Part shown: positions 4,314 to 42,846 of the stretch, one piece after another | Layout: each line of letters opens with the position of its first letter | Numbering within the stretch: position 1 is the first letter of the stretch | Virus record (IMG/VR): IMGVR_UViG_3300032770_000027 | Location: 1-53,185 of that record | Strand: one strand, 5' to 3' | Source: a virus | Length of the DNA stretch: 53,185 bases | Notes under the pieces: model-generated | Databases searched by the model: none | Seen by the model: only the letters and a program-made list of their open reading frames with translations | Told to the model about the DNA's origin: nothing | Program-made: the position numbers and the translations under genes

Positions 4314-4372
4314 TGTCTTGTCTTTCGTGTTTGGTTTTGTGTTTGGTCCGGACTTGCGGTCCGAGTTTGGGC

Positions 4373-4401: not shown

Positions 4402-4499
4402 CGGATTTTTTAAGTAATTTTTCGGACGTATTTTCAGCATCGCGTCTTGCGGTGTAATTTGCACTGGTTAGCGCAACGCAACTTTTTTTCAAAAAGGTA

Positions 4500-4528: not shown

Positions 4529-4533
4529 CTGAC

Positions 4534-4863: not shown

Positions 4864-4865
4864 CT

Positions 4866-6649: not shown

Positions 6650-6842
6650 GCTGAAGTTGCTGGCATCGTATATGACAATTGCTCAAATGACCGAACTGTT
6701 CGGGATCGAAAACCAAGAGTGGCAGGTGAAGAATTGGATTTACCGCGATCGGGCAAACCTGTGGGCGATCCGGCTCCTGACTCCGATTGTTGATACGAAG
6801 CTGGCAGAATTTGCCACAAAGACAAAGACCAAAAAACCATAA
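6603..6842 (+). CDS. Small helix-turn-helix-like protein
   Basis: A 79-residue basic protein starting inside the previous gene. 'LASYMTIAQMTELFGIENQE' followed by 'WQVKNWIYRDRANLWAIRLL' reads as a helix-turn-helix (helix, short turn at FGIEN, second helix). The tail is Lys/Thr-rich. It is probably a small regulator, and its placement next to another such gene suggests a regulatory pair. Confidence 0.55.
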   Translation: MPKRNNPHDPKKFQRKLKLLASYMTIAQMTELFGIENQEWQVKNWIYRDRANLWAIRLLTPIVDTKLAEFATKTKTKKP

Positions 6843-6861
6843 CCAAAACCGAAAAAGAACT

Positions 6862-7299: not shown

Positions 7300-7414
7300 G
7301 GGTGAACGATCCAAAGGGCTGCACCTGTGCGAAGGGTGCGGCCAATTCAGCAATGAAGTAAGATATTCCAAACGGATCGGTAAATTCGTTTGTTTCTTTT
7401 GCTACTGCAAATGA
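7283..7414 (+). CDS. Zinc-ribbon mini-protein (43 aa)
   Basis: It starts at an ATG inside the end of the previous gene and ends in the ATGA overlap with the next. Two Cys pairs (CEGCGQF and CFFCYC) are spaced like a treble-clef or ribbon zinc site. No family recognised. It is one of about a dozen tiny Cys-pair proteins in this genome. Confidence 0.55.
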   Translation: MTCHFEGERSKGLHLCEGCGQFSNEVRYSKRIGKFVCFFCYCK

Positions 7415-7698
7415 GTAACCAGATCACAACTGTTCAGGTTATCCAATATCTGATGCCCGATGGACGCACCAGATTTGTAAAAACAGACCTGCCGATAGAA
7501 GTTCAGCAGGATTACAACGACATGCTGGCATCGGGATGCAGGTTTGAAATTGAAATGCTCCAAACAGGACATGTTTCGGCAACGATATTCAATCCAGAAA
7601 AAGAAGAGGACGTTGACATTTCGATCACCAGCAACGGTCCGGACGTGCAGACTGGAATGGTAGAAATGCTTAAAAGGCGGCAATGGAAAGAACAATGA
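7411..7698 (+). CDS. Hypothetical phage protein (95 aa)
   Basis: The ATG at 7411 overlaps the previous TGA. The N-terminus has 'VIQYLMPDGRTRFVKTDLP'. The centre is a strand-rich 'CRFEIEMLQTGHVSATIF', and an acidic stretch 'EKEEDVDI' precedes a helical end. It looks like a small beta-rich phage protein. No function assigned. Confidence 0.58.
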   Translation: MSNQITTVQVIQYLMPDGRTRFVKTDLPIEVQQDYNDMLASGCRFEIEMLQTGHVSATIFNPEKEEDVDISITSNGPDVQTGMVEMLKRRQWKEQ

Positions 7699-8054
7699 AA
7701 ACCATCGTCACCCCGGCAATCTTCACTGGTTTCGGTTCAAGGCTGGACAAGAGCCTGTCATTCCGTGGATGCACACCTGAGTTAACCAGCGTGGAAAAAG
7801 CAGCGTTCATGGACTTCCAAGGGCTTAACGTCCGGCTCCTCATCGAACCGGTGGATTATCCCACAGACGGCAAGCAGGAAGTGAAGGGGCTGTTGGACTC
7901 GAAAACTCCGAGCCAACGGCTCCGGGCCGTCCTGTTCGTGCTGTGGAAGCAGGAAACTGACAAGCAATGCGAACTGAGAGATTTCAACCAGTTCTACATT
8001 GAAAAAATGGAACGATTAATCGACAAGGTGAAAGAACAGATCAACCCGCAATGA
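7695..8054 (+). CDS. Conserved phage protein (119 aa)
   Basis: The ATG at 7695 overlaps the TGA of the previous gene; an ATG four codons upstream is less likely. The centre and end, 'RLRAVLFVLWKQ', then 'FNQFYIEKMERLIDKVKEQ', match a helical protein family often seen in phage early regions. No activity is known to me. It is coupled to the next gene by ATGA. Confidence 0.65.
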   Translation: MKTIVTPAIFTGFGSRLDKSLSFRGCTPELTSVEKAAFMDFQGLNVRLLIEPVDYPTDGKQEVKGLLDSKTPSQRLRAVLFVLWKQETDKQCELRDFNQFYIEKMERLIDKVKEQINPQ

Positions 8055-8326
8055 CCAGCCTCACTAAAAAAGTTGTCCGGCTCACAGATCAGAAATACGG
8101 TAAGCGCCGGATTGTGGTTACTCTGGCACCAGTCAAAACAGAAACCTTTATCGGAATGCGGCTGAAGGGAAAACGGACGCAATACGTGGTGGCACTGTCC
8201 AGCTTATACCGGTTGGGGGCATTGTGGCATGGCGACAAAATCAAAAGGGCAAAAGCTGCGGCTCGCAAACTGGGCGTGCCGTGGCGGGTCGCCAAAAAAG
8301 AGTTTGAACGACAACACAGATTATGA
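8051..8326 (+). CDS. Small basic phage protein, source of a duplicated fragment
   Basis: A 91-residue protein rich in Lys and Arg, with a strand-rich start ('RIVVTLAPVKTETFIGMRL') and a helical end. It resembles small conserved phage proteins. Its first eight codons (MTSLTKKV) are echoed at 9325-9348 as MTALTKKV before an early stop. Coupled at both ends by ATGA overlaps. Confidence 0.62.
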   Translation: MTSLTKKVVRLTDQKYGKRRIVVTLAPVKTETFIGMRLKGKRTQYVVALSSLYRLGALWHGDKIKRAKAAARKLGVPWRVAKKEFERQHRL

Positions 8327-8589
8327 CCGATTTTGGCATACGTGGCGACTGTGTTTATATCTCGTGGCAGACCCGGAAAATGCTGGGATATGCCGTGCTC
8401 ACCATGCCAGACGAGGTTGAAGCTGTTAGAACCATAGACGGATTGACAGAAAAGGTGATGGCAGACTGGCTCAAGGCCAACCATCCGAAAATAGTTGAAC
8501 ATGTAAAGAAACAGGTTGAAACTGATGCTGAGTTTAGAAAGCAACTCGTGCAACAGAATGAAAAGCCTTCCCATCCTGAATGCAAGTGA
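8323..8589 (+). CDS. Hypothetical phage protein (88 aa)
   Basis: Not recognised. The first 30 residues form likely strands ('CVYISWQTRKMLGYAVLTM'), and the rest is helical and charged, ending 'KPSHPECK'. Its end overlaps the start of the RusA-like gene by 32 bases. Confidence 0.55.
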   Translation: MTDFGIRGDCVYISWQTRKMLGYAVLTMPDEVEAVRTIDGLTEKVMADWLKANHPKIVEHVKKQVETDAEFRKQLVQQNEKPSHPECK

Positions 8590-8914
8590 ATCATTCAAAC
8601 GACTCAATCCACACCTGTTTGGTCTGGCTCGATCACCTGCCCAAGACCGAAAACCTGCAACGACGCGGGACGTTCTCAAGCCGGTCAAACTCAACAAAAG
8701 AGGCACACCGATCGTGGCGGTCAGCATTGTCACTTTCAGAAAAATCGTTCTTGATGACGATAATAATGTCGGCGCGTGCAAGGCTCTGCGCGACGCCATC
8801 GCCGATTCCCTTGGAATCAATGACAAAGACAGCAGGGTGCGATGGGAATACGGACAGGTTGAAACCAGAGCCAGAACCGGAACACTTGTAAGAATAACTT
8901 TGTTGGAATCGTAA
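8558..8914 (+). CDS. RusA-like Holliday junction resolvase
   Basis: A 118-residue protein from the ATG at 8558 (an in-frame ATG at 8516 would add 14 residues within the previous gene). It has the RusA pattern: an acidic 'DDDNN' at residues 66-70, 'KALRDAIADSLGI', then 'DKDSRVRWEYGQ' and a closing strand. RusA-family enzymes cut branched DNA such as Holliday junctions. In phages they resolve recombination intermediates or concatemers before packaging. It is the only DNA-processing enzyme of its type recognised here. Confidence 0.72.
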   Translation: MKSLPILNASESFKRLNPHLFGLARSPAQDRKPATTRDVLKPVKLNKRGTPIVAVSIVTFRKIVLDDDNNVGACKALRDAIADSLGINDKDSRVRWEYGQVETRARTGTLVRITLLES

Positions 8915-9114
8915 TGATCAATCCACTTGTCACAATCACATGTCTGGCGATCGGATTTACGCTTGTGATTCTTTCGGTTGTTCACGTGGTAATCGCATTC
9001 AAAAGACACCGTGAGCCGAAACAATTGTGGTCGCATCTGATCCACGCGGTGATCTGTGCCGCTGCCGCTTGTGCGATGTCATGGATTCTGTCAATCCTCG
9101 AAGTGAAATGGTGA
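8914..9114 (+). CDS. Small membrane protein, two transmembrane segments
   Basis: The start codon shares a base with the stop of the RusA-like gene. The 66-residue product has hydrophobic segments at about 5-28 and 42-60, with a basic loop ('FKRHREPKQ') between them. It fits a two-pass inner-membrane protein with both ends on the same side. Holin-like in size, but it is far from the lysis-type genes; role unknown. Confidence 0.6.
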   Translation: MINPLVTITCLAIGFTLVILSVVHVVIAFKRHREPKQLWSHLIHAVICAAAACAMSWILSILEVKW

Positions 9115-11568: not shown

Positions 11569-13217
11569 GGGCTTACAAAGGGAATGTGGATCGGGATGCC
11601 CTTATTGGTGATTGTAATCGACCCGTTAAACGATGAGATTGCCGCTGGTGGAGCGCCGGTAGAAATGTTCACGCTCAGATTGGTCGTGAATAAGGCCGTC
11701 AATCCGCTTGAGGGTGAACCGACGGAAAATGAATAGGCTCCGGGCACGATCCCGTTGGTCGTGATAGACAGAAACAGTTGATTGGCCACGTCCACAAGCC
11801 CAATATAATTTCCATAAGCGCCAAGGTCCATTTCATATCGGGAAGCGCCCTGAAAATACCAGAGCGCCGGCAATCCTCCGCTGAAAAACGTCCCCAACCA
11901 CATATTTCCGATCGCGCCATTGTTTGTCTGTCCCACGAGAAGTGCGTTGTAAAGATGCGGTGTAAAAGTGCTGTAATCCAGCACGACATTGCTGGGCAAA
12001 ATGTAATTTGTTGGAGCGTTGGCTGTCGGAAAATCCGCACAGATCATGGAATACAGATTGGCAGCCCATAACCGTGCTCCACCATCAGTTGGATGCACCC
12101 CGGGTGTGTAGATGATCCCCGATGAAAGCATGAAGTTCGTGTCATTGAACCGTGAATACAGGTCAGCGTAACACCAGCCATTCATAGCGCAGACAAGTTT
12201 AGCGCTGTAATTCTGCCACAGATTGTCCGCCACGTCCGTCGCAGGAGACTGATCCATCCGGGCCGGGGTTGCGACGATGATCACGTGAGTGTTAGTGTAT
12301 GACAGGAGACTTAGAAGCTGTGTCAGCACGTTGGTGTAGGTGGTGACATCATTCTCTTCACCCCAATCCTTGGCGTGGTAAACAATCAGGTCCGGCTGGA
12401 TGTTGGTGCCGATCTGTCTGAGCATATTGGTTCCTCCGATCATCGTCAGAAAATTGGTGATCGTGAGTCCTCCCTTGGCCATCCACCACACCTTGATACC
12501 CGGCGTGTTTGTCCGATTGAAGTCCGGCAGGATGTAATTTGTTCCGGCGGCACCAGACCAGCCGGAGAACACAATCTGATTGTCTATTCCGGCTGTGGAA
12601 AAATTGGTATGTAACAATGTGGGCGTCGCGGCGTAGCCGTTGATCTTGACCGTGGTATTGATGCCCTCAGTTGGTGCGGTCACCGTGGCCCAGAAGTTTG
12701 TTCCCAAAGGCTGCGCCACCCACCAGAATCCAACCTGATTGATCGGCTTTCCGATCACGGTTGAAAATGACTGGCTTTGGGTCATGTAAGCGGCATTGGT
12801 TCCATCAGAACCATACAACACGCACCAGTGGATTCCCGGCCAGTTTGTGTTTTCGTTCCGGTTCAGCGTCGTCGGGAATGATGCCCACCACCCTTCGAAC
12901 CCTTCTCCATTATTCCCAAAATTGGCTTGCAAATACTGCGACAGATATTCACTTGCCGACGGCTGGCCATATCCATTTTGGCTCATGGAGTCTCCGATCA
13001 TCAGAACCGAGGCTCCGGAGCCGCTGGCGTTTCCATAAAAGGCAGGCAGCGCCGCACTTGGTATCTGAGTCTGAGGAAGCAGCAGGCCATCCGTGCTGGA
13101 TACTATGCCGGTGCTATAACCGTCACCGATGAGATTTCCGATGACGTTGCCTTTAAAAGTTTGACCGTGCGCTGCGAGGCACACGGCCATCAGGGCTGTT
13201 GCAATGATCTTTTTCAT
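11565..13217 (-). CDS. Exported SGNH/GDSL hydrolase
   Basis: A 550-residue protein with a Sec-type signal peptide ('MKKIIATALMAVCLAAHG'). The SGNH block I motif 'VLMIGDSMSQ' puts the nucleophile at Ser77. A possible block III lies in 'DWGEENDV'. Block V reads 'GVHPTDGG' with His375, but the Asp usually three residues before this His is Pro372. SGNH hydrolases act as esterases, often deacetylating glycans. The C-terminal 170 residues are beta-rich and fibre-like. It lies among structural genes, so it may be a host-surface glycan esterase on the virion or an exported lysis helper. Confidence 0.68.
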   Translation of the reverse strand: MKKIIATALMAVCLAAHGQTFKGNVIGNLIGDGYSTGIVSSTDGLLLPQTQIPSAALPAFYGNASGSGASVLMIGDSMSQNGYGQPSASEYLSQYLQANFGNNGEGFEGWWASFPTTLNRNENTNWPGIHWCVLYGSDGTNAAYMTQSQSFSTVIGKPINQVGFWWVAQPLGTNFWATVTAPTEGINTTVKINGYAATPTLLHTNFSTAGIDNQIVFSGWSGAAGTNYILPDFNRTNTPGIKVWWMAKGGLTITNFLTMIGGTNMLRQIGTNIQPDLIVYHAKDWGEENDVTTYTNVLTQLLSLLSYTNTHVIIVATPARMDQSPATDVADNLWQNYSAKLVCAMNGWCYADLYSRFNDTNFMLSSGIIYTPGVHPTDGGARLWAANLYSMICADFPTANAPTNYILPSNVVLDYSTFTPHLYNALLVGQTNNGAIGNMWLGTFFSGGLPALWYFQGASRYEMDLGAYGNYIGLVDVANQLFLSITTNGIVPGAYSFSVGSPSSGLTALFTTNLSVNISTGAPPAAISSFNGSITITNKGIPIHIPFVSP

Positions 13218-13492
13218 GCTGTTTGAAGTCCTGTATCATGCCACGCTCCGGAAAAATAAGCCCACAATTCTCTCGTGCTCGTATCAATAGCCATTCCACA
13301 ACCGGAGGATGGTGTGAAATTTGGTGTCACACCAGAATAATTCCCACAGGTCACGCCGCCGGCAGCTCCGCTACCGCCATTGGACTGTATCTGGCAAAGC
13401 AGGTAAATCAACACTGGAAGTTGCATCCCGTTTGGAATATTACAGGCGATGCAGGAAGCATTGTTGATTAGTGTTTGTGGATCACAGGCCAT
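13214..13492 (-). CDS. CxxC/GMQ repeat protein A
   Basis: A 92-residue protein whose first 36 residues share the module also present in the next two genes: 'NNASCIACNIPNGMQLPVLI' followed by a CQI end. The C-terminal half is Gly/Ser/Thr-rich with a closing 'LWAYFSGAWHDTG' that looks like a fibre tip. The paired Cys could bind metal or form a disulfide. Probably a virion decoration. Confidence 0.6.
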   Translation of the reverse strand: MACDPQTLINNASCIACNIPNGMQLPVLIYLLCQIQSNGGSGAAGGVTCGNYSGVTPNFTPSSGCGMAIDTSTRELWAYFSGAWHDTGLQTA

Positions 13493-13493
13493 A

Positions 13494-14078
13494 TTATCTC
13501 AATACTTCACCGTAGCCCTGTTGGGCAGTCAGCGATTGAGTTCCATCACCAACAGTTCCCGTGATTTTGAGATTGTTCGCCTGAGCAAAATTCAGTCCCA
13601 CAAGATCGGTCGTTGTTATGCCGACCGTTTGAGAGGGGCTGGCAGCAGCATACGATAAATTCTCAACAACAGTGGTCCGGGCTGTGGTCGTGCCGGTCAT
13701 TACAATTTGAACCCGAAGATCGTGATCTGCTGGATTTGCCGCTGAGAGCGTATTGCTCCAAATAACCTGTCCTGCAAAACTGATTGTAATGTTGACATTG
13801 TATGGAGTGCCGCCATAGGTGTTGTGAGCAACATATTCCGCGATGATTCTTTGCCCCGCAGTCGTGAGCGTGTTTGCCGGAATCGAATCGGAATAAAGAT
13901 CAGTCGCACCAGTTCCAGAAGTCGAAGAATTGGAATAGTGAGAGAACAACTGAGCCGAGCTTCCAGACTGCTGAATCTGACAAAGCAGATAGATCAGCAC
14001 CGGGAGCTGCATCCCGTTGGGGATGTTGCAGGCAATGCAGGACGAATTGTTGATCAGACTTTGCGGATCACAGGCCAT
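13494..14078 (-). CDS. CxxC/GMQ repeat protein B
   Basis: A 194-residue protein with the N-terminal module nearly identical to protein A ('NNSSCIACNIPNGMQLPVLI', then CQI), followed by a 150-residue beta-rich domain ('NVNITISFAGQVIWSNTL', 'DHDLRVQIVMTGTTTA'). The module plus jelly-roll-like domain suggests a decoration or fibre protein anchored by the shared module. Two bases separate it from protein A. Confidence 0.6.
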   Translation of the reverse strand: MACDPQSLINNSSCIACNIPNGMQLPVLIYLLCQIQQSGSSAQLFSHYSNSSTSGTGATDLYSDSIPANTLTTAGQRIIAEYVAHNTYGGTPYNVNITISFAGQVIWSNTLSAANPADHDLRVQIVMTGTTTARTTVVENLSYAAASPSQTVGITTTDLVGLNFAQANNLKITGTVGDGTQSLTAQQGYGEVLR

Positions 14079-14079
14079 A

Positions 14080-14319
14080 TCATACTCCGGCTATTTGGCA
14101 CGCCACAGAAATCGCCACGGCCCATTGCATGCCGGCGGGAATGTTGCAGGCAATGCAGGAAGCATTTCCGACCAGACTGTTGATGGCGGTTTTAGAGCTG
14201 ACATCCACCCCGGCAATCTGAGCCGCCAGATAAATCATGGCCGGCAACTCCATGCCAACCGGTATCAGACCTTCATACTGCCGCGCAGCGGTCACCAGCG
14301 TTTGAGAATCACACACCAT
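14080..14319 (-). CDS. CxxC/GMQ repeat protein C (two modules)
   Basis: A 79-residue protein built from two copies of the module: 'QYEGLIPVGMELPAMIYLAA' and 'NASCIACNIPAGMQWAVAIS', the second carrying the CxxC. It has no extra domain, so the module itself may assemble, for example on the capsid. Likely a paralogue of proteins A and B. Confidence 0.6.
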   Translation of the reverse strand: MVCDSQTLVTAARQYEGLIPVGMELPAMIYLAAQIAGVDVSSKTAINSLVGNASCIACNIPAGMQWAVAISVACQIAGV

Positions 14320-17114: not shown

Positions 17115-18203
17115 TTATTGCTGCTTCAAAATGACAAGGTGAATTAGCGATCCATTCAATTCAACCGCTTCGCCAACGTAACCGTCAGCAGTAAGTCCGG
17201 TGATTTCCACGTCCGGTTCACCGTTGCTCGGCTTGTGACGAAAAATCTGGTTGGTCTTATAGTCCAGCGCCAGAATCCGGTTCACCTGCTTCACGGCGTT
17301 TTCCGGTTTGTATTCGAACACGCTTTCGGTATCGCCACCGATCACGTCGCTGCCCAAACGCTTTACTGCTGAATCGTGCAAGGCTTTCCACGAGGCTTTA
17401 TGGTCGAACACTTCAATTGTCTCCACGCCGTTCTGGTTGATCATCGCAAGGCCGGCCTGATTTTCCACCAGCTTGATCTTGGACAGGATCTCGTCAAAGT
17501 GCATCGCAAACTCTTTGAAGTTGCTATGCAGGTCGTCAATTTTGCTTGGGCCGGCAAATACCGATGAGGCGCTGATAGGAACGCAACTTTCATCCGAACC
17601 ACCCATCATATAACTTCCGACTGACTGACCAGAACGTCCACGAACCGCCCCGTGGGAACCACTGCTGAAAAACGCATGCCCGGCAGCGGATTTTTCCACT
17701 TTGGTTTTCCCCATCTTCGCGTTCATTTCAGCGTTTGATGCCATCACGTTGGACCATGTCGATGACTGATCGGCAAAATGGTAACCGCTGGTGTAATTCT
17801 TTTTGTCGAAGTTGAGCGGAGTGATACCACCGTAGAGAACCTTGGAGTTCGGGCTGATTCCACGACTGGCATGCACACACCGGACACCGAGTTTTTGTTT
17901 CTTGCCCGGAAACAAAACTGCGCTACGCATCAGCGCCCGTTCCTGAGTTGATCCCTTGAAGATCGTTCCCGATCGCATGAAAACATTCAGGTCGGTTGTG
18001 TTGTGGGCTTCCATTTCGTCGATCCGGCCAGTGTCAAACACGTTGACCTTTTCGGTTTCCGGGAAGGTGATGTATTGCCGGGAAATGGACGTGCTGCGCA
18101 AAATTGGAAGCACGACCGCAAGAGATTTTTCGTCGATTCGAACCGGCTTGCCGTAGGAGTAGCCGAGTTTTTCCTCGGCCAATGAGGACAGAATTTTTAA
18201 CAT
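17115..18203 (-). CDS. ARPP-1 (DUF6569) family protein
   Basis: A 362-residue protein from the ATG at 18203. Residues 72-115 carry the family core: 'LNVFMRSGTIFKGSTQERAL' then 'KKQKLGVRCVHASRG', and later 'DQSSTWSNV'. ARPP-1 domains are linked by gene context to ADP-ribose processing systems (ADP-ribosylglycohydrolases and phosphatase-like partners) but no activity is established. Here the gene sits directly upstream of the 153-residue gene and the capsid gene, with a strong promoter. It may be a virion-linked or counter-defence factor acting on NAD/ADP-ribose; that is inference. Confidence 0.62.
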   Translation of the reverse strand: MLKILSSLAEEKLGYSYGKPVRIDEKSLAVVLPILRSTSISRQYITFPETEKVNVFDTGRIDEMEAHNTTDLNVFMRSGTIFKGSTQERALMRSAVLFPGKKQKLGVRCVHASRGISPNSKVLYGGITPLNFDKKNYTSGYHFADQSSTWSNVMASNAEMNAKMGKTKVEKSAAGHAFFSSGSHGAVRGRSGQSVGSYMMGGSDESCVPISASSVFAGPSKIDDLHSNFKEFAMHFDEILSKIKLVENQAGLAMINQNGVETIEVFDHKASWKALHDSAVKRLGSDVIGGDTESVFEYKPENAVKQVNRILALDYKTNQIFRHKPSNGEPDVEITGLTADGYVGEAVELNGSLIHLVILKQQ

Positions 18204-18245
18204 AGAATACTTTCTTTTACACCGGGATACTTCCCGGATGGTGTG

Positions 18246-18274
18246 TTTATACAATGAGTGCGTAACGCAGTCAA
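18246..18274 (-). promoter_or_regulatory. Strong promoter of the ARPP-1 gene with operator-like palindrome
   Basis: On the minus strand TTGACT (18269-18274), 17 bases, then TATAAA (18246-18251), five of six matches in each box. The spacer contains GCGTTACGC (18260-18268), the same palindrome found in the 4373-4401 promoter. It faces a second promoter at 18283-18311. Confidence 0.75.
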
Positions 18275-32979: not shown

Positions 32980-34761
32980 ATGATCAAATATGGAATGGAT
33001 TTCGGTCCGAATGCCACCGACCTTCAGGTCGAAATGGAAATGATCCGGCGGGGTGGCAAAATTGGGTTGAATGGCAACGGACTATCCTACCACTACGAAC
33101 AGATGCGTAAAATCATCTGGCCGGAACTGGATGAGCATCGCTGGCACAACCTGTGCCGGGACGAAATCCTGAAAAACAAGGTCACTGTATTGATGGGTCC
33201 GGGTTCCTGCGGGAAAACCCACGAGGCGGCATGGATTTACCTGTGTGAATACTGGTGCTTTCCGGAAGAAACCTGTGTCTTGGTTTCGAGCACTCACATG
33301 CAGGGACTGCGTCTGCGCGTCTGGGGAGAGATCACCATGCTGTGGCAAAAGGGGCTGGATCGCTTTCCTGAGCTGTCTGGGCATCTTTTAGACGCAAAGG
33401 TGGCCATTACCACTGACGACATCGAGGATGGGGATTTCAACGAGCGGCGGGCGCGAGATCTGCGGAAAGGGATTGTCGGGATTCCGTGTGTTCAGGGTGG
33501 AAAATTTGTCGGGTTGTCGAAATACATGGGGATTAAACAGAAAAGGATGCGGTTAATCGCGGACGAAGCCAGCGCCATGGGAGAATCATTCCTGTCAGCC
33601 TTCTCAAACCTCAATAAAAACGAGGATTTTCGAGCCATAATTCTCGGCAATCCGAACGATCCCCTCGACCCGCTTGGAAAGGCAGCCGAACCAATCGACG
33701 GATGGGGTTCTCATTTGGAACCGTCAAAAACTGATGTTTGGAAAACCCGATTCATGAACGGAACCTGCGTCAATTTGATCGGCACAGACAGCCCCAACTT
33801 TGATTTTCCGCCAGACCAACCAACCCGTTACAAATATCTGATAAGCCGGGAAAAAATAGCTGAAACACTGTCCTTTTTTGCCAAGGATTCAACCGAGTAT
33901 TACAGCCAATGTGTCGGGGTTATGAAAATCGGCTTGTTGGCAAAACGCGTCCTCACCCGGGAAATATGCCGACAATTCAAAGCGACTGACGAAGTTGTGT
34001 GGCAAGGATCGGACCGGGTCAAAATCGCGGGGCTGGACGCATCCTACGGTGGAGACCGATGCGCGTTAAGCCATGCAGAATTTGGAAAAGAAAATCAGAC
34101 CGGCAACATCGTCGTGGCGCTTCATCCGATCACCATTGTTCCTGTGAAGCCTTCCAGTGACAAAATCCCGGAGGATCAGATTGCGGAGTTCTGTCGGAAT
34201 TACTGCAATCAGCATGGGATTCCTGCTGAAAACTTTTTTCATGATTCCACCGGTCGAGGAACTCTTGGCACGTCATTAGCCCGTATCTGGTCGTCAGCAT
34301 GCAATCCAGTGGAATTTGGCGGTTCACCGACTGAGCGTCCTGTTTCATTAAACCTTTACATATATGACGAGAAGGAACAGCGCAAGCGCCTCAAAAAGTG
34401 CAAGGAGCACTACAGCAAATTTGTTACAGAGCTGTGGTATCAAGTGAGGTATTGCGTAGAGGGTTCGCAACTTCGCGGGTTGCCGGAGGATGCCATGGAT
34501 GAGTTTTGCCTGCGGAACTGGGACTACGTCAGTGGAAATAAAATTGAGGTTGAACCCAAAAGTGACATGAAGGAACGCACCGGTCGCAGTCCTGACCTTG
34601 CTGATTGCATTACAATCATCCTTGAAGGCTGCCGCCGGAAGGGATTTCAGCTTCAGAAACTCGGGAGCGATGAAAAGGAGGAGGAAAACAAGTCGTGGAT
34701 GGAAACGCTTTATCGCAAACAACGAACACTTGCAGCACAACACCAGTTGACATACAAATGA
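32980..34761 (+). CDS. Terminase large subunit
   Basis: A 593-residue protein. The ATPase has a Walker A motif GPGSCGKT (73-80) and a Walker B motif 'RMRLIADE' (190-197). The nuclease has acidic residues in 'KIAGLDASYGGD' (near 353), 'FFHDSTGRGTLG' (near 422) and 'DLADC' (539-543). It pumps DNA into the head and cuts it. Its likely small partner lies across the circle junction. A later in-frame ATG (MDFGPNA) is a possible start. Confidence 0.9.
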   Translation: MIKYGMDFGPNATDLQVEMEMIRRGGKIGLNGNGLSYHYEQMRKIIWPELDEHRWHNLCRDEILKNKVTVLMGPGSCGKTHEAAWIYLCEYWCFPEETCVLVSSTHMQGLRLRVWGEITMLWQKGLDRFPELSGHLLDAKVAITTDDIEDGDFNERRARDLRKGIVGIPCVQGGKFVGLSKYMGIKQKRMRLIADEASAMGESFLSAFSNLNKNEDFRAIILGNPNDPLDPLGKAAEPIDGWGSHLEPSKTDVWKTRFMNGTCVNLIGTDSPNFDFPPDQPTRYKYLISREKIAETLSFFAKDSTEYYSQCVGVMKIGLLAKRVLTREICRQFKATDEVVWQGSDRVKIAGLDASYGGDRCALSHAEFGKENQTGNIVVALHPITIVPVKPSSDKIPEDQIAEFCRNYCNQHGIPAENFFHDSTGRGTLGTSLARIWSSACNPVEFGGSPTERPVSLNLYIYDEKEQRKRLKKCKEHYSKFVTELWYQVRYCVEGSQLRGLPEDAMDEFCLRNWDYVSGNKIEVEPKSDMKERTGRSPDLADCITIILEGCRRKGFQLQKLGSDEKEEENKSWMETLYRKQRTLAAQHQLTYK

Positions 34762-34764: not shown

Positions 34765-35478
34765 ATGAGCCTGCGATTACGATCACGAACAACGCTTCCT
34801 CCGAACGGAATTCTTTACACCCAGAAAGAAACGGGATGGGTAAGTCACGTCGCCAATCCCAATTCGCAATGGGACTTCAAGCTCTGCGCCCGGGAAATCC
34901 AGCGCCACCGCCTCTCAAACCCGGGCCTGTTCGCCAGACTGGGGATTTCCACAGATCTGGGAGCCATCGAGGACGAGCTGGACAGAACCAACGCACTGCG
35001 CGTGTCGGCAATCCCGAACGCGGATATTTATTTGATGCAGGGAGGCGCACCGCCCCCAAAACAGTTAGCCCCTCCCAGCCAAAAGCGACTGGCTGCTGTG
35101 GCAGGGGCGGTTAAAAAAATACAAGCCGGTGTCGATCTGCTGCTGGACTGGGAAGAATCCGGAGAATCGCCCGTTGCACCCGATTTGTCGGCACGTCGCG
35201 CCACAATTTGTGCCACGTGCCCTAAAAACGGAAGGTCGGCACTTACTGAATGGTTTACTGTTCCGGCGTCCGAACTGATCAAGCGCCGGATCGCACGACT
35301 TAACGATCTGAAACTTTCCACTCCATCCGATGGTCAGATCAACATTTGCACGGCCTGTCTCTGCCCGCTCAAATTAAAAGTTCACACACCGATTCATATT
35401 GTGTTGAAACACCTGCTTCCAGAAGCTAAAGCTGATCTTGATCCGCGTTGCTGGATCTTGAATGAAGCCAAATCTTAA
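34765..35478 (+). CDS. Hypothetical protein with two Cys-pair sites
   Basis: A 237-residue protein right after the terminase. It has 'ATICATCPKNG' and 'INICTACLCPLKLKV', which together could bind zinc, and a helical centre. The first half is Arg/Pro-rich. Its end overlaps the next gene's start by 17 bases. Role unknown; its place in the packaging block suggests an accessory to packaging or to the cargo genes that follow. Confidence 0.55.
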   Translation: MSLRLRSRTTLPPNGILYTQKETGWVSHVANPNSQWDFKLCAREIQRHRLSNPGLFARLGISTDLGAIEDELDRTNALRVSAIPNADIYLMQGGAPPPKQLAPPSQKRLAAVAGAVKKIQAGVDLLLDWEESGESPVAPDLSARRATICATCPKNGRSALTEWFTVPASELIKRRIARLNDLKLSTPSDGQINICTACLCPLKLKVHTPIHIVLKHLLPEAKADLDPRCWILNEAKS

Positions 35479-36847
35479 ATCGGTCACGCTGGTCTGCATT
35501 GACACGACCAATAAAGTCCATCTGGCGGAACGGGCGCTGGAAAAATCCTTGGAACAGGCGGACTTCACTGCGGTCAAATTATTGACTGATGATACAACCC
35601 GAAAGTGGGCTGTAAAAATTCCGAAGATAAACGGATTGGAAGGTTACTCCAACTTCATCGTCCGCGAACTTCACAAATATATCAGCAGCACGCATTGTCT
35701 GGTTGTTCAGTATGACGGATACGTTCTGAACGGTGCGGCGTGGACTGACGATTTCCTGAAATTCGACTACATCGGAGCGCCGAGCTGGGGAATGAACATG
35801 GCTGTTGGGAATGGTGGATTTTCACTGCGATCACTTCGATTACTGACCGTCGGGGCCACACATGCACTTGGAGAAAATTGCCATCCCGAAGATGCGTGGC
35901 TCTGCTTCCGGCACAAGCACGCACTGGAAGCAAAAAACATCCAGTTCGCTCCGCCACTATTTGCCAAACAGTTCAGCTTCGAAGGGCGCAGTTACGACGG
36001 TCATGGGTGGCACGGCACGCCAAATCAGTATTGCGGTTCGTTTGGTTTCCATTCATGGCTGACCCCGCTTCCGGAAACGATGGACAAACCGATGATTTTT
36101 CACCATACAGGAGATACCGGCGACATCATCTATTCCCTGCCGGTTATGAAGGCGCTTGGCGGTGGCGTCCTGTTTATTTCCCCGGATAGCCGCTACCCGT
36201 ATCCCCGCCCGTGCCGGGTCACACCCACCGCCGAAACGGTAAACAACATCGCGTGCCTGACCAACCAGCAGGACTACGTCTGGAACACGCTCTGGACGCA
36301 CGGCCTGCCATTTTCCACCGATGTTGATTTCAACATGTTTCGGGATTGTTACCGCGTGCCCGGACTGGATCATTGGGCCAGTCTATTTTCACTTCATCAA
36401 AAACCGTTTGGGGTGACGTGGCCGGAAGATAAACCGTGGCTGGACGTGGATGCGGCAATAAAAATCCCGGGTCGTGACATCGTCGTTAACCGGACGGAAA
36501 GATTTCACAACGAATTTTTCCCATGGGCACAGCTCGTGATAAAGCATGGTCACCGCATGGTGTTTATTGGATCTCCTGAAGAGTATCAAACATTTCGCGG
36601 GTTTGGACTGCCGCAAATCGACATCCCCTATCAGCCAACGCCAACACTTCTGGAAGTAGCCCGGTTCATCAAGGGAGCAAAAGTATTCGTGGGCAACCAA
36701 TCAGCACCGATGGCCATCGCTCTCGGACTGGGAGTCAACATTGTGCAGGAAACTTGGCCCGGAAATCCTAACTGCCGGCTCAAGCGCGATAACGCCATCT
36801 ACTGCTCAACAGACAAAACAGAAATACCGGACTCGTGGTTAAAATGA
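35462..36847 (+). CDS. Two-domain glycosyltransferase (DUF5672-like + GT9-like)
   Basis: A 461-residue fusion. Residues 1-200 look like DUF5672 ('LVVQYDGYVLNGAAW', 'FDYIGAPSW', 'HPEDAWLCFR'). Residues about 213-455 fit a GT-B enzyme of the heptosyltransferase-like GT9 group: 'HHTGDTGDIIYSLPVMKALG' and 'VFVGNQSAPMAIALGLGVNI'. GT9 enzymes move heptose from ADP-heptose to a sugar acceptor. The neighbouring gene at 38192 makes a heptose nucleotide precursor, which makes this pairing meaningful. It overlaps the next gene (ATGA). Confidence 0.66.
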   Translation: MKPNLKSVTLVCIDTTNKVHLAERALEKSLEQADFTAVKLLTDDTTRKWAVKIPKINGLEGYSNFIVRELHKYISSTHCLVVQYDGYVLNGAAWTDDFLKFDYIGAPSWGMNMAVGNGGFSLRSLRLLTVGATHALGENCHPEDAWLCFRHKHALEAKNIQFAPPLFAKQFSFEGRSYDGHGWHGTPNQYCGSFGFHSWLTPLPETMDKPMIFHHTGDTGDIIYSLPVMKALGGGVLFISPDSRYPYPRPCRVTPTAETVNNIACLTNQQDYVWNTLWTHGLPFSTDVDFNMFRDCYRVPGLDHWASLFSLHQKPFGVTWPEDKPWLDVDAAIKIPGRDIVVNRTERFHNEFFPWAQLVIKHGHRMVFIGSPEEYQTFRGFGLPQIDIPYQPTPTLLEVARFIKGAKVFVGNQSAPMAIALGLGVNIVQETWPGNPNCRLKRDNAIYCSTDKTEIPDSWLK

Positions 36848-37443
36848 CTACCCGTATTTTGGTTCCGTTTTCCCGGCCACACCTTCTTCCAGAATTAATT
36901 GATTTGTGGGAGAAGGAGCGCGGCAAGCAGGTTGCATTTGTTCCAATACACCATGAACCAATTGGTATAAGACACGAGTTAGACTCGACCATCTACCCAT
37001 TTTTTTGTGATCCGGTCCCGGAAAACTGGAACGCCATGTATTGGAAACTGAATTATCTTCTTGATCAACTGCCAATCTGTAACGAAGATCGCTATGGATT
37101 TCTGTGTGATGACGATGCTTACGAGCCGGGATTTTTCGACAAGCTCAACAGGTTGGACGACGACGTAATTATTGTCTCAATGAAGCGCGGGAATCGGTGT
37201 CCGCCCGGTGGTAATGGACACCCGCCAACCACGCTGATTGCACAGAAGGAAAATATAAAAATCGGCTCAGTTGGAATGGAACAACTTTTTATCCGTGGAA
37301 AGCTGCTCAAGAATTACCGGTTCAAAAACTTTGCCGAAGCCGATGGTGATCTGATTTGCCGGGTTGTAAACGATCACAAACCGAAATATCTGGCCAATGC
37401 TTTCATATACTTCAATTACTTTGAACCCGGTCGGTGGAGTTGA
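36844..37443 (+). CDS. GT-A-like glycosyltransferase
   Basis: A 199-residue protein from the ATG at 36844, overlapping the previous stop. An acidic metal-binding motif is plausible at 'YGFLCDDDAYEPGFFDKLN', and 'NWNAMYWKLNYLL' resembles the donor-site strand of GT-A enzymes. A late 'FAEADGDLICRVV' may supply the catalytic base. It is shorter than typical glycosyltransferases. It is probably coupled to the GT9-like fusion. Confidence 0.6.
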   Translation: MTTRILVPFSRPHLLPELIDLWEKERGKQVAFVPIHHEPIGIRHELDSTIYPFFCDPVPENWNAMYWKLNYLLDQLPICNEDRYGFLCDDDAYEPGFFDKLNRLDDDVIIVSMKRGNRCPPGGNGHPPTTLIAQKENIKIGSVGMEQLFIRGKLLKNYRFKNFAEADGDLICRVVNDHKPKYLANAFIYFNYFEPGRWS

Positions 37444-37447
37444 TCCC

Positions 37448-37645
37448 ATGATTACCAGTCTGTTTGTCGCAGTCCGGCTTTACGCGGTTTACAAAAATCA
37501 GATTGAAGATGCGATACGCTTCTGGAATGAATTAAGGGATGAAGCGCGAATTGAAGGCAATATTGAAAATATCCAGTTCTACAATGAACTTGCAAACGAA
37601 GCGTGGCGTCTTGGCCGGCGCTTGAGAGTCCCCGGAAGCCTGTGA
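37448..37645 (+). CDS. Small helical protein (65 aa)
   Basis: Starts at an ATG four bases after the glycosyltransferase stop. It is a single amphipathic helix-rich protein ('VRLYAVYKNQIEDAIRFW', then 'NIENIQFYNELANEAWRL'). No family recognised. It belongs to the cargo block between terminase and portal. Confidence 0.5.
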   Translation: MITSLFVAVRLYAVYKNQIEDAIRFWNELRDEARIEGNIENIQFYNELANEAWRLGRRLRVPGSL

Positions 37646-37648
37646 ATA

Positions 37649-37966
37649 ATGCGATTCTCAATTTCCAAGGATGGAAAATGGACCGGAGACGTGACAACCA
37701 GTTCGCTTTCGATCGGTTTAAAACTGACACTTCCATGGTCGGACGACGATATTATCGTGAGCAAGATTTACATCGAGGAACGAGGATTTCCGACGCAGTT
37801 TATTGCCATCGACTTCATCGGTTACGGACGACAGGGAACACTCTACAGAGGATTCATCACCGACCCACTAAATCATGAAAATCAAATTCACACCACTCGG
37901 ACGAAGGATATTGATAAAACACGAATACAAAAACAAAACGGACAGCGGAGCGCTGCATCTGCCTGA
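37649..37966 (+). CDS. Small protein overlapping the GroES gene
   Basis: A 105-residue frame, three bases after the previous stop. The first 75 residues are strand-rich ('LSIGLKLTLPWSDDDIIVSK'), while the last 30 overlap the start of the GroES frame and look like out-of-frame sequence. It is likely a real small protein with a long overlap. Confidence 0.48.
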   Translation: MRFSISKDGKWTGDVTTSSLSIGLKLTLPWSDDDIIVSKIYIEERGFPTQFIAIDFIGYGRQGTLYRGFITDPLNHENQIHTTRTKDIDKTRIQKQNGQRSAASA

Positions 37967-38195
37967 GACGGCGTCACAAAAAGCGATAGGAAGCCGGGTG
38001 ATTGACGTTGGCAACGAAATCAAAGCCACTTCTCCAATCCAAAAAGGGGTTCAGGTTTCAGTAAAGCCATACGCCGGACAGGAAATCGAGCTGAACGGTG
38101 AGCATTATTTTCTGGTCGATCCGGAAGATATTCTCGGCATCGTTGAACTGATCCCGGAAGAACCAAAATTGAGTATCGTGACGCCGGAAAAATGA
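37875..38195 (+). CDS. Phage GroES-like co-chaperonin
   Basis: A 106-residue protein matching GroES (usual 94-100 aa): 'FTPLGRRILIKHEY', a mobile-loop-like 'NKTDSGALHLPETASQKAIG' with the LP turn, then 'GSRVIDVGNEI' and 'YFLVDPEDILGIVE'. GroES caps GroEL and helps folding. Phage GroES analogues such as T4 gp31 help the host chaperonin fold the capsid protein. Its place amid packaging and head genes supports that role here. Confidence 0.82.
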   Translation: MKIKFTPLGRRILIKHEYKNKTDSGALHLPETASQKAIGSRVIDVGNEIKATSPIQKGVQVSVKPYAGQEIELNGEHYFLVDPEDILGIVELIPEEPKLSIVTPEK

Positions 38196-38707
38196 ACACT
38201 GTCGGAAAAATTATCCCGCCACAATGTCTGGTCACCGAGCGGGAAAAACTCCGCAAGTATGAATTCAAGGTCATTGTCACCAACGGGTGTTTTGACATCC
38301 TTCATTCCGGCCACGTTGACTATCTGGAAAAAGCTGCGTCCATGCTTGATGACTACAGGGGTCATAGCATGGCGTTCCTGCTCGTCGGATTGAACAGCGA
38401 TGATTCAGTCAGAAAGTTGAAAGGTCCAACCCGACCCATAAACAATCAGAACGACCGCGCCCGCGTGCTGGCTGCACTTGAATGTGTTGATGGGGTTTGC
38501 ATCTTTTCCAATGTGAGAGCAACTGAATTTTTGAAGGTGGCACAACCTGACTATTACGTAAAAGGCGGAGATTACACACTCGAAACCTTGGACAAGGATG
38601 AACGTGCTGCACTCGAATTCATGGGGACGAAAATCACATTTTTCCCAACCACAACCGGAAAATCCACGTCAGAAACCTTGGCCAAAATCCAATTGACAAT
38701 GCCGTGA
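38192..38707 (+). CDS. Heptose 1-phosphate adenylyltransferase-like (HldE C-domain type)
   Basis: A 171-residue nucleotidyltransferase with 'VTNGCFDILHSGHVDYLEKA' (HxGH at 38-41), 'GLNSDDSVRKLKGPTRPI' and a late GKST. This closely resembles the adenylyltransferase half of HldE, which joins ATP with a heptose 1-phosphate to make ADP-heptose. No kinase half is present. Other cytidylyltransferase-fold donors are possible, but the 'GLNSDDSVRKLKG' stretch is typical of HldE. It overlaps GroES by four bases, which links folding and sugar genes in one unit. Confidence 0.78.
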   Translation: MNTVGKIIPPQCLVTEREKLRKYEFKVIVTNGCFDILHSGHVDYLEKAASMLDDYRGHSMAFLLVGLNSDDSVRKLKGPTRPINNQNDRARVLAALECVDGVCIFSNVRATEFLKVAQPDYYVKGGDYTLETLDKDERAALEFMGTKITFFPTTTGKSTSETLAKIQLTMP

Positions 38708-38769
38708 TCGGGATTTAATAGTTGAGTGTTAAGTAAGCACTCATTCGTCTTACTCAATGGGTTTGGTTC

Positions 38770-38795
38770 GGCTGCCGGAGTCGTGTCCGGCAGCC
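38770..38795 (+). other. Hairpin in front of the portal gene
   Basis: A perfect 9-bp stem (GGCTGCCGG/CCGGCAGCC, loop AGTCGTGT) in the 125-base gap before the portal. A GAGTG...CACTC inverted repeat lies just upstream. No T-tract follows, so a processing or attenuation role is more likely than full termination. No clear promoter was seen. Confidence 0.55.
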
Positions 38796-38832
38796 ACTTT
38801 CGTAGTGGAGGGTCGATGAAAAGGATTTCAAG

Positions 38833-41148
38833 ATGAACTTTACATCGGCTCAGGCGTTGGAACAGGTAATCTGGCAGATGCGGCTGGCTGATTACCCAAG
38901 ATCTCTGAACCGCAGCCGGATTGACGACCTGTTTAACGGGGTTCCGCCCTATTCCGCAACGGAAGTTGAACAGAACAATTACTCCACCAACGTCAACTTT
39001 CTCGAATCCACAAAAATTGCGCACGACGCCCGCCGACAGTTTTACAATGCCTTCTCCGTTCCTGATCCGGTCTTTTTCGTAAACTTGGATCGCGGTCCAA
39101 AACACAAACGCCGTGAATGGTCATCGAGGATTACCAAAATCCTCGGCAAGATCATGAAAAACAGCATGGCGTTCCATGAGCTTCAGCGCGGACAATTTGC
39201 AAACGTTGTGCTGCACGGGATCGGACCATCAATCTGGGAGGACAAATACAGTTGGTGTCCAATTGATGTTGGAGTCGAGGACGTTCTTGTGCCGGCCAAC
39301 ACCCTGACCAGCATGAGAAATCTCGTGTTCCGCGCCGTGTTCCGGCAATACACCGCGATGGAGTTGTGGAAGATGACACACGGTCCAAGTGTGGATAAGG
39401 CGTGGAATATTCCGGCAGTTGAATCAGCAGTAAAATGGGCGGATCAGGAAGCGCGTCTGTTGATGGGAACAAGCTGGCCGGAAACATGGAGTCCGGAAAA
39501 AATGTCGGAACGAATCAAATCAGACGGTGGACTTTATGCGAGCGACGTTTTACCAACCATCGACTGCTTTGACTTTTTATTCTGGGATGATGATGGGAAA
39601 CGCTCGGGATGGAAACGCCGGATAATTCTGGACGCGTGGGGCAATCCGGGGGTTGGTGCTTCTGCTCAGATTCCGGAAAAATTGAAGCAGATGACTTCGT
39701 CCAAAACCCGGTTCAAGGACATTGACGATTTCCTCTACAACTCAAAGGACAGGATTTACTGTGACAATATATCTCAATCCACCCACTGGCAATTCGCCGA
39801 CGCTTCGAGTGTCGCCCCCTTCCGGTATCATTCGGTTCGCTCAATCGGCTTCCTCTTATATGCCGTTTGTCACCTACAGAATAGGTTGCGTTGCAAGTTC
39901 AACGACGCAGTGTTTGAGAACCTGCTGCAATACTTCAGAGTCACAAATCCTACCGACATGGACCGGGTCACGCGGATCAACCTCGTGGATAAAGGCGTGA
40001 TCGAGGAAGGAGTAAATTTTGTTCGCCCGGAGGAACGCTGGAAGTTTGATCATGACATTGTCCAGTCTGCAATGCAGCTCAATCGTCAGACCATGTCGGA
40101 CAACTCGGCATCGTTCACTCAGGATTTTGATTTTTCGAAAGAGAATCAGGAGGAAACGGCAACCCGCACAATGGCCAAAGTCAACGCGACCGCCGCATTG
40201 GTTGGAGCAATGCTTAATCAGGCTTACAACTATCAAATTTTCCAGTATCGGGAAATGGCCCGACGGTTCTGCATTAAAAATTCCCGCGATCCAGAAGTTA
40301 GAAAGTTTCGGGTTCTCTGTTTCAAAGAAAACATCCCGGATTATGCACTGGACAGCGAGGCGTGGGACATCAGCCCCAACCGGGTTGTCGGAGGCGGCAA
40401 CAAAGTTCTGGCCGTTGCCATTGCCGACAAGCTCATGAGTGTCGTCAACCGGCTCAATCCGGAGGCTCAACAGGAAGTGGACCGGCTTTACATCGCCACC
40501 TATACCGACGATTGGGATCTGGCCGAACGGCTCGTGCCCGAAGAGCGCCGGATCAGCAATTCGACCTATGCAGGTCAGCTTGCCGCCGGATCACTCATGG
40601 AAGGATTGCCGGTCAAAGCTCCGGACGACATCAACCGGATCGACTACACCGAAGCGCTGTTGGCCGATCTCGCATTCATCATCCAGAAAATTGAAGCCAA
40701 GGGCGGCATGGCCACTCCGGAACAGGTGGAAGGCTTGCAGAACATGTCCAAGCATATCAGCGAGCAGGTGGCATCAATCGCCCAAGATCCACAGGAGAAA
40801 GAACGGGTTAAAAAATATAACGACGCACTTTCCGGGTTCAATAACCGCATCAAAGCCTACATCCAGCGGCTTCAGAAATCTGCCGCAGCGGGTCAACAGG
40901 GTGGTGGAGGGATGGATGGCAAAGACGCGGCGAAAATCCAATCGCAAACGCTGTTGGCTCAGAACAAAGCCAAGCTTGCATCAGAATCTCACGCCCAGCG
41001 CACCGCCCAACGTCAATTGCAGTTCGAGCAACAGATGCGTCAGGATCAGGAAAAGCACCAGATGGAGCTGCAAAAAGAAGCGCTTGAAACCACGCACAAC
41101 ATGGCGATAAGCCGGCTGAAATCAATGAACGGAGAACATGATGAGTAA
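38833..41148 (+). CDS. Probable portal protein
   Basis: A 771-residue protein. Position after the terminase, length and a long helical C-terminus ('RQLQFEQQMRQDQEKHQMEL') fit a P22-type or related portal, the ring through which DNA enters and leaves the head. The middle has a beta-rich 'PIDVGVEDVLVPANTLTS' and helices ('ENQEETATRTMAKVNATAAL'). No single decisive motif is visible; the scaffold-type gene nearby supports the call. Confidence 0.68.
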   Translation: MNFTSAQALEQVIWQMRLADYPRSLNRSRIDDLFNGVPPYSATEVEQNNYSTNVNFLESTKIAHDARRQFYNAFSVPDPVFFVNLDRGPKHKRREWSSRITKILGKIMKNSMAFHELQRGQFANVVLHGIGPSIWEDKYSWCPIDVGVEDVLVPANTLTSMRNLVFRAVFRQYTAMELWKMTHGPSVDKAWNIPAVESAVKWADQEARLLMGTSWPETWSPEKMSERIKSDGGLYASDVLPTIDCFDFLFWDDDGKRSGWKRRIILDAWGNPGVGASAQIPEKLKQMTSSKTRFKDIDDFLYNSKDRIYCDNISQSTHWQFADASSVAPFRYHSVRSIGFLLYAVCHLQNRLRCKFNDAVFENLLQYFRVTNPTDMDRVTRINLVDKGVIEEGVNFVRPEERWKFDHDIVQSAMQLNRQTMSDNSASFTQDFDFSKENQEETATRTMAKVNATAALVGAMLNQAYNYQIFQYREMARRFCIKNSRDPEVRKFRVLCFKENIPDYALDSEAWDISPNRVVGGGNKVLAVAIADKLMSVVNRLNPEAQQEVDRLYIATYTDDWDLAERLVPEERRISNSTYAGQLAAGSLMEGLPVKAPDDINRIDYTEALLADLAFIIQKIEAKGGMATPEQVEGLQNMSKHISEQVASIAQDPQEKERVKKYNDALSGFNNRIKAYIQRLQKSAAAGQQGGGGMDGKDAAKIQSQTLLAQNKAKLASESHAQRTAQRQLQFEQQMRQDQEKHQMELQKEALETTHNMAISRLKSMNGEHDE

Positions 41149-41560
41149 CCCAAAACCATTCGACAAAATTGAAATCGAATTCATCGACCACAAAAAACAG
41201 CGCTATGATACGTGTGGGGATTGGCGGTTTGTGAAGGGTGTTGGCGATGAGAAAATCCTGCTGATCTCCGTTTCCAAGCTTTCGGACTGGCGACGCGAAA
41301 TTCTGATCGCCATCCATGAGGCTGTCGAAGTTTGCCTGTGCGCTTACGATGGTGTGAGTCAGGAAGTGGTGGATAAATTTGACACGGAATATGAAGCCCA
41401 CCGGCATCCCGACAATGAGGATGAACCGGGTGACGATCCGTCAGCTCCCTACATGCGTCAACATTGCATTGCCACCGGCATCGAACGCACGTTGGCAGCA
41501 TGGTTGAATGTGTCATGGAAAGAATACGAGGAAGAATTGGGAACACTTGAATGGAAGTAG
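41141..41560 (+). CDS. Conserved phage protein with metal-site-like HE motif
   Basis: A 139-residue protein starting within the end of the portal gene. It contains 'EILIAIHEAVEVCLC' and 'EPGDDPSAPYMRQHCIATGI', a pattern I recall from phages. The HEAVE segment and downstream His/Glu residues hint at a metal site, but it lacks the second His of HExxH. Function unknown. Confidence 0.58.
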   Translation: MSNPKPFDKIEIEFIDHKKQRYDTCGDWRFVKGVGDEKILLISVSKLSDWRREILIAIHEAVEVCLCAYDGVSQEVVDKFDTEYEAHRHPDNEDEPGDDPSAPYMRQHCIATGIERTLAAWLNVSWKEYEEELGTLEWK

Positions 41561-42846
41561 CCAACATAATTGCCGCAATCATTGATAACGGCATGTTTTT
41601 TGGTCTCGCCCAGCAATTGGCCAGATCATTCAAGAAGGTCTATTACCACTATCCGTCATGGCAGCGCGGGTTTCCCACCTGCCGCGACGGTTCCATCGGC
41701 GATGGTTTCCCTGAAGTGATTCTGGCAGATGACCTGTGGCGGATCAAAAACGACGTTGGAGTTTTTATCTGCCCGGACATCCAACATTCCGGAATTCAAG
41801 CCGAGCTGGAAAGTCAGGGCAAACTGGTGTGGGGTTCCCGTAGTGGTGATTCTCTGGAATTGTTCCGAGGCAAGTTCATGAAAATCGTCCACGATGTTGG
41901 ATTGGATGTCGCGCCTTACGAGGAAGTAGTCGGACTGAAAAATCTCACCGCGCTACTAACCCGGGAAGATAACAAATACATCAAGATCAGCCGGTGGCGC
42001 GGAGACATGGAAACGTGGAGGCACTTCAACATCGAACTGTCCCGGCAAAAATTATTACATCTGGCCCGACGTTTTGGACCGCTGGCGGATCAGGTTCACT
42101 TTCTGGTTTTTGACCCAATCGAAACCAACATCGAAGTTGGATATGACGGATACTGCATCGACGGCTGGTTCCCAAACGTCGCCATTCACGGAATCGAAAA
42201 GAAGAACGAAGCTTACATCGGCGCAATCCAGCCTTATGACGAACTGCCGGAACAGGTGCGCGAGGTCAATGAGCGAATGTCGGAGGTTTTGGGAAAACAT
42301 AATTACCGGAATTTTTTCTCAAGCGAGATCCGGATCAAGGATGACAAATTTTACTTCATCGACCCTACTTGCCGGGCCGGAATCCCATCCGGAGACGGCC
42401 AATTTTTGTTATACAAAAATCTGCCGGAAATAATTTTGGCGGGCGCGGCTGGCGACGTGATAGAACCGGAATATACCAAAAAGTTTGTCGTTCAACTTCT
42501 GATTTCCCACGACGACGATCATGCCGACTGGCGGGACATTCAGGTGCCGGACGATGTCATGCCTTACGTGCGATTGTTCGCCCCGGTAAAATGCGGCGGG
42601 GTCTACAGCATTTCACCATCCTGCGACAGCGAAAACACGATTGGGTCCGTTCTGGGTGAAGGAGACACCATCGACGAAGCGATCGAGCACGCAAAAAACA
42701 ACTCTGCCAAGTTGGAGAATAATCCGATTTCAATCAAAACGGATGCCATCACCGATGTTTTAAAGGAAATGCACGCCGCTCGGGAGCACGGAATTGAAAT
42801 GACGGAAGAAGAAATTCCAGAACCGGCATCACTTTTGGACTCTTGA
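41551..42846 (+). CDS. ATP-grasp-like ligase
   Basis: A 431-residue protein. 'RNFFSSEIRIKDDKFYFIDP' (about 250-271) followed by 'TCRAGIPSGDG' fits the ATP-grasp signature in which acidic residues and an Asp-Pro bind Mg-ATP. Upstream 'YIKISRWRGDMETWRHF' resembles the Lys-containing nucleotide strand. ATP-grasp enzymes join a carboxylate to an amine or similar group. The substrate is unknown. Together with the glycosyltransferases it suggests a modification function encoded between portal and scaffold. Confidence 0.6.
   Translation: MEVANIIAAIIDNGMFFGLAQQLARSFKKVYYHYPSWQRGFPTCRDGSIGDGFPEVILADDLWRIKNDVGVFICPDIQHSGIQAELESQGKLVWGSRSGDSLELFRGKFMKIVHDVGLDVAPYEEVVGLKNLTALLTREDNKYIKISRWRGDMETWRHFNIELSRQKLLHLARRFGPLADQVHFLVFDPIETNIEVGYDGYCIDGWFPNVAIHGIEKKNEAYIGAIQPYDELPEQVREVNERMSEVLGKHNYRNFFSSEIRIKDDKFYFIDPTCRAGIPSGDGQFLLYKNLPEIILAGAAGDVIEPEYTKKFVVQLLISHDDDHADWRDIQVPDDVMPYVRLFAPVKCGGVYSISPSCDSENTIGSVLGEGDTIDEAIEHAKNNSAKLENNPISIKTDAITDVLKEMHAAREHGIEMTEEEIPEPASLLDS

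Follow-up and report, generated by a model that had tools for sequence, protein, structure and literature searches.

Why should a phage encode a probable heptose-activating enzyme between its terminase and its portal? The question is raised by a virus sequence, the 53,185-nt IMG/VR record IMGVR_UViG_3300032770_000027, called the window here. A first-pass annotation had placed a sugar-transfer block at 35462-38707, consisting of a DUF5672-like plus GT9-like fusion, a GT-A-like glycosyltransferase, GroES, and an HldE-type adenylyltransferase. The open reading frames (ORFs) coincide exactly with that range, all on the plus strand, between the gene for the terminase large subunit (TerL) and a putative portal gene (Table 1). 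The region is tentatively read as one form of a glycan cassette whose contents are exchanged among related phages; in this phage it may make an activated heptose and attach it during virion assembly to an acceptor, most likely a virion protein.

An exchangeable sugar-gene site before the portal

Relatives of the window were collected by a portal-profile search, which gave 113 viral relatives, 80 of which were kept. Many of these are 50–59-kb records, and they represent a lineage of uncultivated phages of roughly 55 kb. A cysteine-rich gene, orfZ, marks the left border of the block. It has homologues in 58 of the 80 lineage loci, or 59 of 81 once the window is counted, and most of them lie upstream of the portal on the same strand. 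The interval from orfZ to the portal spans 0.7–7.8 kb across the relatives. Strict sugar-gene profiles, restricted to those with outside support (GT9-like, DUF5672, GT2_4, C-methyltransferase, RmlD, methyltransferase 24, GT9, and HldE), were positive in 26 of 54 intervals, or 21 of 49 without near-copies. With lineage-conserved unassigned genes added, the figures are 45 of 54 and 40 of 49. Methyltransferases, radical SAM genes, and GT1-like genes were seen by eye in the intervals as well. Because the interval profiles derive in part from this same interval, the independently curated PF00535 (GT2) was taken as an outside test. Of 50 whole records, 13 had matches, 17 in all, and 16 of these 17 lie on the portal strand no more than 8.3 kb upstream of the portal. 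In most relatives the interval between orfZ or TerL and the portal is an exchangeable glycan-gene site, where the place and the kind of gene are conserved while the contents turn over.

The window block is tightly packed. The orfZ gene follows the TerL stop after 3 nt, and overlaps of 17, 13, and 4 nt join orfZ to the fusion, the fusion to the gene at 36835, and GroES to HldE. The arrangement is beyond chance: neighbors abut or overlap by 4–17 nt, and dozens of relatives have the same kinds of genes in this position. An RgpF identity was considered for gtA7 and gtL084c, two common island genes, but gave one weak match in 50 records; both therefore stay unassigned and were kept out of the strict count.

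A conserved four-gene operon was rejected. The same gene set is not found in related phages, as a clear HldE gene occurs in 2 of 50 lineage records (the window and locus L356) and GroES occurs in only 1 of the 80 relatives, outside the interval and downstream of the portal. Most versions of the cassette thus lack HldE. GroES itself was correctly named, but it was dropped from the sugar unit, since it looks like any other phage co-chaperonin and probably serves head assembly, not sugar transfer. What stands of the unit first proposed for the head operon is a sugar block at this place in most of the lineage.

Candidate enzymes for heptose activation and transfer

On sequence, the protein encoded at 38192 belongs with heptose-1-phosphate adenylyltransferases, the C-terminal half of HldE. 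TIGR02199 (rfaE_dom_II) is its best nucleotidyltransferase model (E-value 2.3e-43, 147.5 bits, under the curated cut-off of 181.5); the parent HldE model gives 122 bits and all others at most 48.4. Two Verrucomicrobiota loci, L093 and L094, score 181.8 and 185.4 bits on TIGR02199. Judged against BpHldC (PMC7993394), the protein keeps the TNG, HxGH, NSD, KG, KGG-DY, and ST(S/T) motifs, including all four of the docked-substrate elements (TNG, NSD, KG, and KGG). Family search, motifs, and phylogeny agree in bearing out the HldE-type assignment.

The nearest cellular relatives of this HldE2 are RfaE2 proteins of Verrucomicrobiota, beside which the tree places the window protein together with that of L006 (92/88 at that fork, 95/90 for the wider set). 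In subdivision 3 genomes the RfaE2 gene is immediately followed by a GT9 gene (two of the nearest relatives adjoin GT9), and in L096 GmhA-, GmhB-, and HddC-like genes are also nearby. The ancestry of this one gene suggests a host of the Verrucomicrobiota type. No heptose kinase is present in the window record, as the first-pass annotation had noted in proposing that the host supplies heptose 1-phosphate. That proposal gains from the related bacterial genomes, since all seven that were searched have a heptose-7-phosphate kinase domain match (330–359 bits), and the likely host type should be able to make the precursor.

The C-terminal half of the fusion is supported as a GT-B domain with a GT9-like fold. 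Pfam GT9 matches at an E-value of 0.066 and 13 bits, below the gathering score of 22, while alignment of this half with bacterial GT9 by hhalign gives a probability of 97.5 and an E-value of 4.9e-12 over 195 columns. A single-sequence structure model of the fusion was unusable (predicted local distance difference test, pLDDT, 33). An AlphaFold model built from a 46-row alignment with viral relatives reached pLDDT 83.4. With this predicted model, the top 29 Foldseek matches in the PDB are all GT9 heptosyltransferases (probability 1.00, E-values 1e-6 to 4e-4), among them structures of WaaC bound to ADP-fluoroheptose and of TibC bound to ADP-D,D-heptose. Template-modeling (TM) scores for these matches are modest (0.30–0.38, normalized by query length), which is due in part to the two-domain query; the DUF5672 half drew no separate PDB match. 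The aspartate of the GD motif, equivalent to the catalytic base Asp13 of WaaC, is invariant in the GT9-like family.

Single-protein viral scans with the fusion, its GT9 half, the portal, and the gene at 36835 found nothing, and profiles were needed for viral relatives. Full-length homologues of the fusion, 43–53% identical, are present in L317, L361, L295, L297, and L298, and also in L208; all of these lack HldE in the stretch examined. Further DUF5672–GT9-like fusions occur in L214-L217, and one scan matched the GT9-like domain in at least 191 viral loci. The GT9-like members tested had no GT9-type PHROG match; a single hit may be explained by the GT2 segment alone of a longer fusion.

The protein encoded at 36835, called GT-A-like at first pass, has no match in the family libraries. 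It has four homologues, 30–40% identical and encoded in the corresponding interval of relatives, which form with it a family of five within the lineage and share an invariant DDD motif. These same-interval homologues and the motif make a GT-A-like glycosyltransferase plausible.

HldE and GT9-like genes pair recurrently in viral contigs. In L356 the order is TerL, orfZ, GT9-like fusion, methyltransferases, GT2, radical SAM, HldE, and portal. The HldE of L356 is 47% identical to that of the window, and a tree fits either one gain or separate gains of the two; the last 4 nt of the L356 gene are shared with the beginning of the portal ORF. In a linkage survey covering 80 viral loci that carry the GT9-like domain, an HldE-like gene lies within about 1.2 kb of the GT9-like gene, on the same strand, in L233, L243-L245, and L246, and in L006 DUF5672 lies 89 bases before the HldE domain. 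The L243 locus (3862-8987) presents a near-complete heptose-type cassette in a row, with C-methyltransferase-like, GT9, GT9-like, heptose-kinase-like, cupin-like, HldE, and epimerase genes. The paired HldE genes sit in different parts of the tree, though those of L246, L233, and the L243 group have long branches.

This repeated pairing, with HldE drawn from different parts of the tree, speaks against a reading in which HldE2 and the transferases are unrelated cargo at a gene-collecting site and HldE2 acts alone, for example in supplying host lipopolysaccharide (LPS) or on another sugar phosphate. The contents of the site are also consistently sugar-related, not random. The scarcity of HldE in the lineage would fit such cargo, as would the departures of its substrate motifs from BpHldC and the kinase match present in 26 of 41 HldE-bearing viral records screened and missing from the window. 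On balance, unrelated cargo appears quite unlikely.

The proposed acceptor of the sugar

From these genes we infer the substrate, donor, and acceptor of the cassette, and its benefit. HldE2 would convert host heptose 1-phosphate and ATP to ADP-D,D-heptose, and the GT9-like domain would place this heptose on an acceptor produced late in infection, or extend it there. Help may come from the DUF5672 half and from the enzyme encoded at 36835, through extension or a second transfer. Pfam matched no HldD-like epimerase in the window ORFs that were scanned, a result compatible with the D,D form being used. ADP-D,D-heptose, the HldE product, is the donor that TibC, a protein heptosyltransferase, takes (PMC4358343).

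The choice of acceptor leans toward a virion protein because the genes lie in the head operon and the contents of the site are exchanged. A different outcome would be a change in the sugars of the host surface (LPS core or O-chain), perhaps to prevent superinfection or to keep new virions from sticking to debris, with HldE2 topping up ADP-heptose for LPS. GT9 enzymes classically act on the LPS core (PMC5713226), the closest cellular HldE2 relatives lie in LPS-type clusters, and sugar-gene variety at one site recalls serotype conversion. Against this, the block has no membrane protein, flippase, or gtrA/gtrB-type gene, and hydropathy finds no transmembrane segment in its proteins. Its genes also sit inside the head operon with their short overlaps, and not in an early or lysogenic module. 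A host-glycan role looks unlikely; virion decoration is somewhat more probable, though itself short of even odds.

Decoration of a virion protein with heptose has its own difficulties, and several observations weigh against it. The head-operon position speaks for a virion acceptor only indirectly. Clear HldE genes are rare in the lineage, and most phage HldE loci have no nearby GT9-like gene. The protein encoded at 38192 resembles HldC/RfaE2 (BpHldC, 5x9q) in fold family, core substrate motifs, and its stand-alone form, but it differs in its score under the cut-off, a short insert (DDYRGHSM), and a record without kinase. It also has NVRA in place of EXTP and Thr in place of Phe143, the ATP-stacking residue of BpHldC; in its close Verrucomicrobiota relatives EXTP also varies and the Phe is kept. 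WaaC and WaaF are among the best PDB matches of the phage domain and share its GT-B fold and GD catalytic-base motif. Unlike them, the phage domain is about 250 amino acids long, is fused to DUF5672, and has no clear counterpart of WaaC Lys192. The position of WaaC Asp261, where change to Ala costs 2027-fold (PMC5713226), is Gln in nearly all GT9-like members; donor use may therefore differ, and donor specificity is uncertain. The BAHT proteins TibC and Aah have a GT9-type fold, and TibC acts on protein, but their four-Cys iron finger is missing from the phage domain, which has no CxxC pair. DUF5672 also replaces their N-terminal beta-barrel.

It is very improbable that the transferases instead glycosylate phage DNA bases. 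We know of no case of heptose on DNA, and the window ORFs scanned gave no Pfam match to a deoxycytidine monophosphate (dCMP) hydroxymethylase or a thymidylate-synthase-like protein. The idea draws on the ability of phage GT-B enzymes to glycosylate DNA and on phages that encode sugar-activating enzymes for DNA, such as Shewanella phage Thanatos (PMC12838424).

The cassette has partial counterparts among described phages. The cyanophages S-CAM1, P-SSM2, and S-B05 carry an HldE-like or DUF5672 gene beside sugar genes, but they are large and T4-like, with HldE about 30% identical and outside the orfZ–portal site. Few systems are known in which the virions of tailed phages are glycosylated. The mycobacteriophages Che8 and Rita have phage-encoded glycosyltransferases tied to glycans on capsid or tail proteins, but the glycosyltransferase genes and their genome position differ. 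So far as we know, the sugar on these virions is not heptose-based. Virion glycosylation in mycobacteriophages is cited in two reports (PMC11256854, PMC12619734).

The first-pass annotation knew of no phage system with this gene set. HldE-like genes (phrog_7878) and GT9 genes had already been annotated singly in phages, but the literature searched describes no phage system of this kind. The fixed orfZ–portal sugar island across a lineage, with its heptose-type version, appears to be unreported there. If virion decoration is true, a fixed and rapidly exchanged sugar site next to the portal across an entire uncultivated lineage would suggest that virion sugars are a routine, selected trait. The HldE2 version points to one concrete sugar, heptose, and to a host-supplied precursor. 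A broader claim, that phages of the lineage heptosylate their own head or tail proteins through HldE2 and the GT9-like enzyme and vary the coat by exchanging sugar genes at this one position, is doubtful. With no GT9-type PHROG match and so many viral loci carrying the domain, knowledge of one GT9-like member should inform many.

Gene layout and neighboring features

Table 1. Features of the window from the terminase to the portal, with the evidence for each
Feature	Position	Strand	Evidence
TerL (terminase large subunit)	32980..34761	+	phrog_2 1.2e-9; 55-65% identical homologues in 11 viral loci
orfZ, Cys-rich, ~240 amino acids, left island border	34765..35478	+	homologues in lineage loci
DUF5672 + GT9-like fusion, 461 amino acids	35462..36847	+	ORF; full-length homologues in relatives
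DUF5672 domain of fusion	35483..36028	+	PF18922 2.6e-15; own profile
GT9-like (GT-B) glycosyltransferase domain of fusion (predicted)	36080..36811	+	Foldseek PDB; hhalign against bacterial GT9
Probable GT-A-like glycosyltransferase, 202 amino acids	36835..37443	+	four homologues with invariant DDD
Two small ORFs	37397-37645, 37649-37966	+	ORF list
GroES co-chaperonin, 106 amino acids	37875..38195	+	Cpn10 1.6e-15; phrog_3188
HldE2/RfaE2-like heptose-1-phosphate adenylyltransferase (putative), 171 amino acids	38192..38707	+	TIGR02199; BpHldC 5x9q 1.4e-24; active-site residues; tree
Putative portal, right island border	38833..41148	+	size, position, conservation beside TerL

The portal owes its name to its size, its place, and its conservation beside TerL in relatives, as family and structure searches gave neither a family nor a PDB match. 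Family libraries likewise gave no match for orfZ, which has cysteines at 149, 152, 195, 198, and 200 (CxxC and CxxCxC). The only looser stretch of the block is 37444-37874, where the two small ORFs lie; no homologues were found for either (37397-37966). The first-pass annotation listed neither these ORFs nor orfZ.

Three consecutive stem-loops lie in 38708-38832, between the HldE stop and the portal start (-43.4 kcal/mol, z -3.8 against shuffles), and are possibly a terminator or processing site. A promoter and terminator scan gave no more sites than shuffled sequence.

Three terminase genes of other loci are interrupted at similar positions by intein-like insertions (xxGTxVDTPxG; L090 10001-12649, L091 3324-6215, and L092 8327-11239). 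Shortly after the portal, the gene at 41551-42846 looks ATP-grasp-like by eye, with no convincing family match, and has homologues in 40 of the 80 lineage loci. Elsewhere in the window, 17115-18254 encodes a phage protein with an ARPP-1 domain (PF20208, 2.4e-24). At 13214-14319, a segment like LINNASCIACNIPNGMQLPVLIYLLCQI is common to three consecutive ORFs and constitutes a repeated small protein module.

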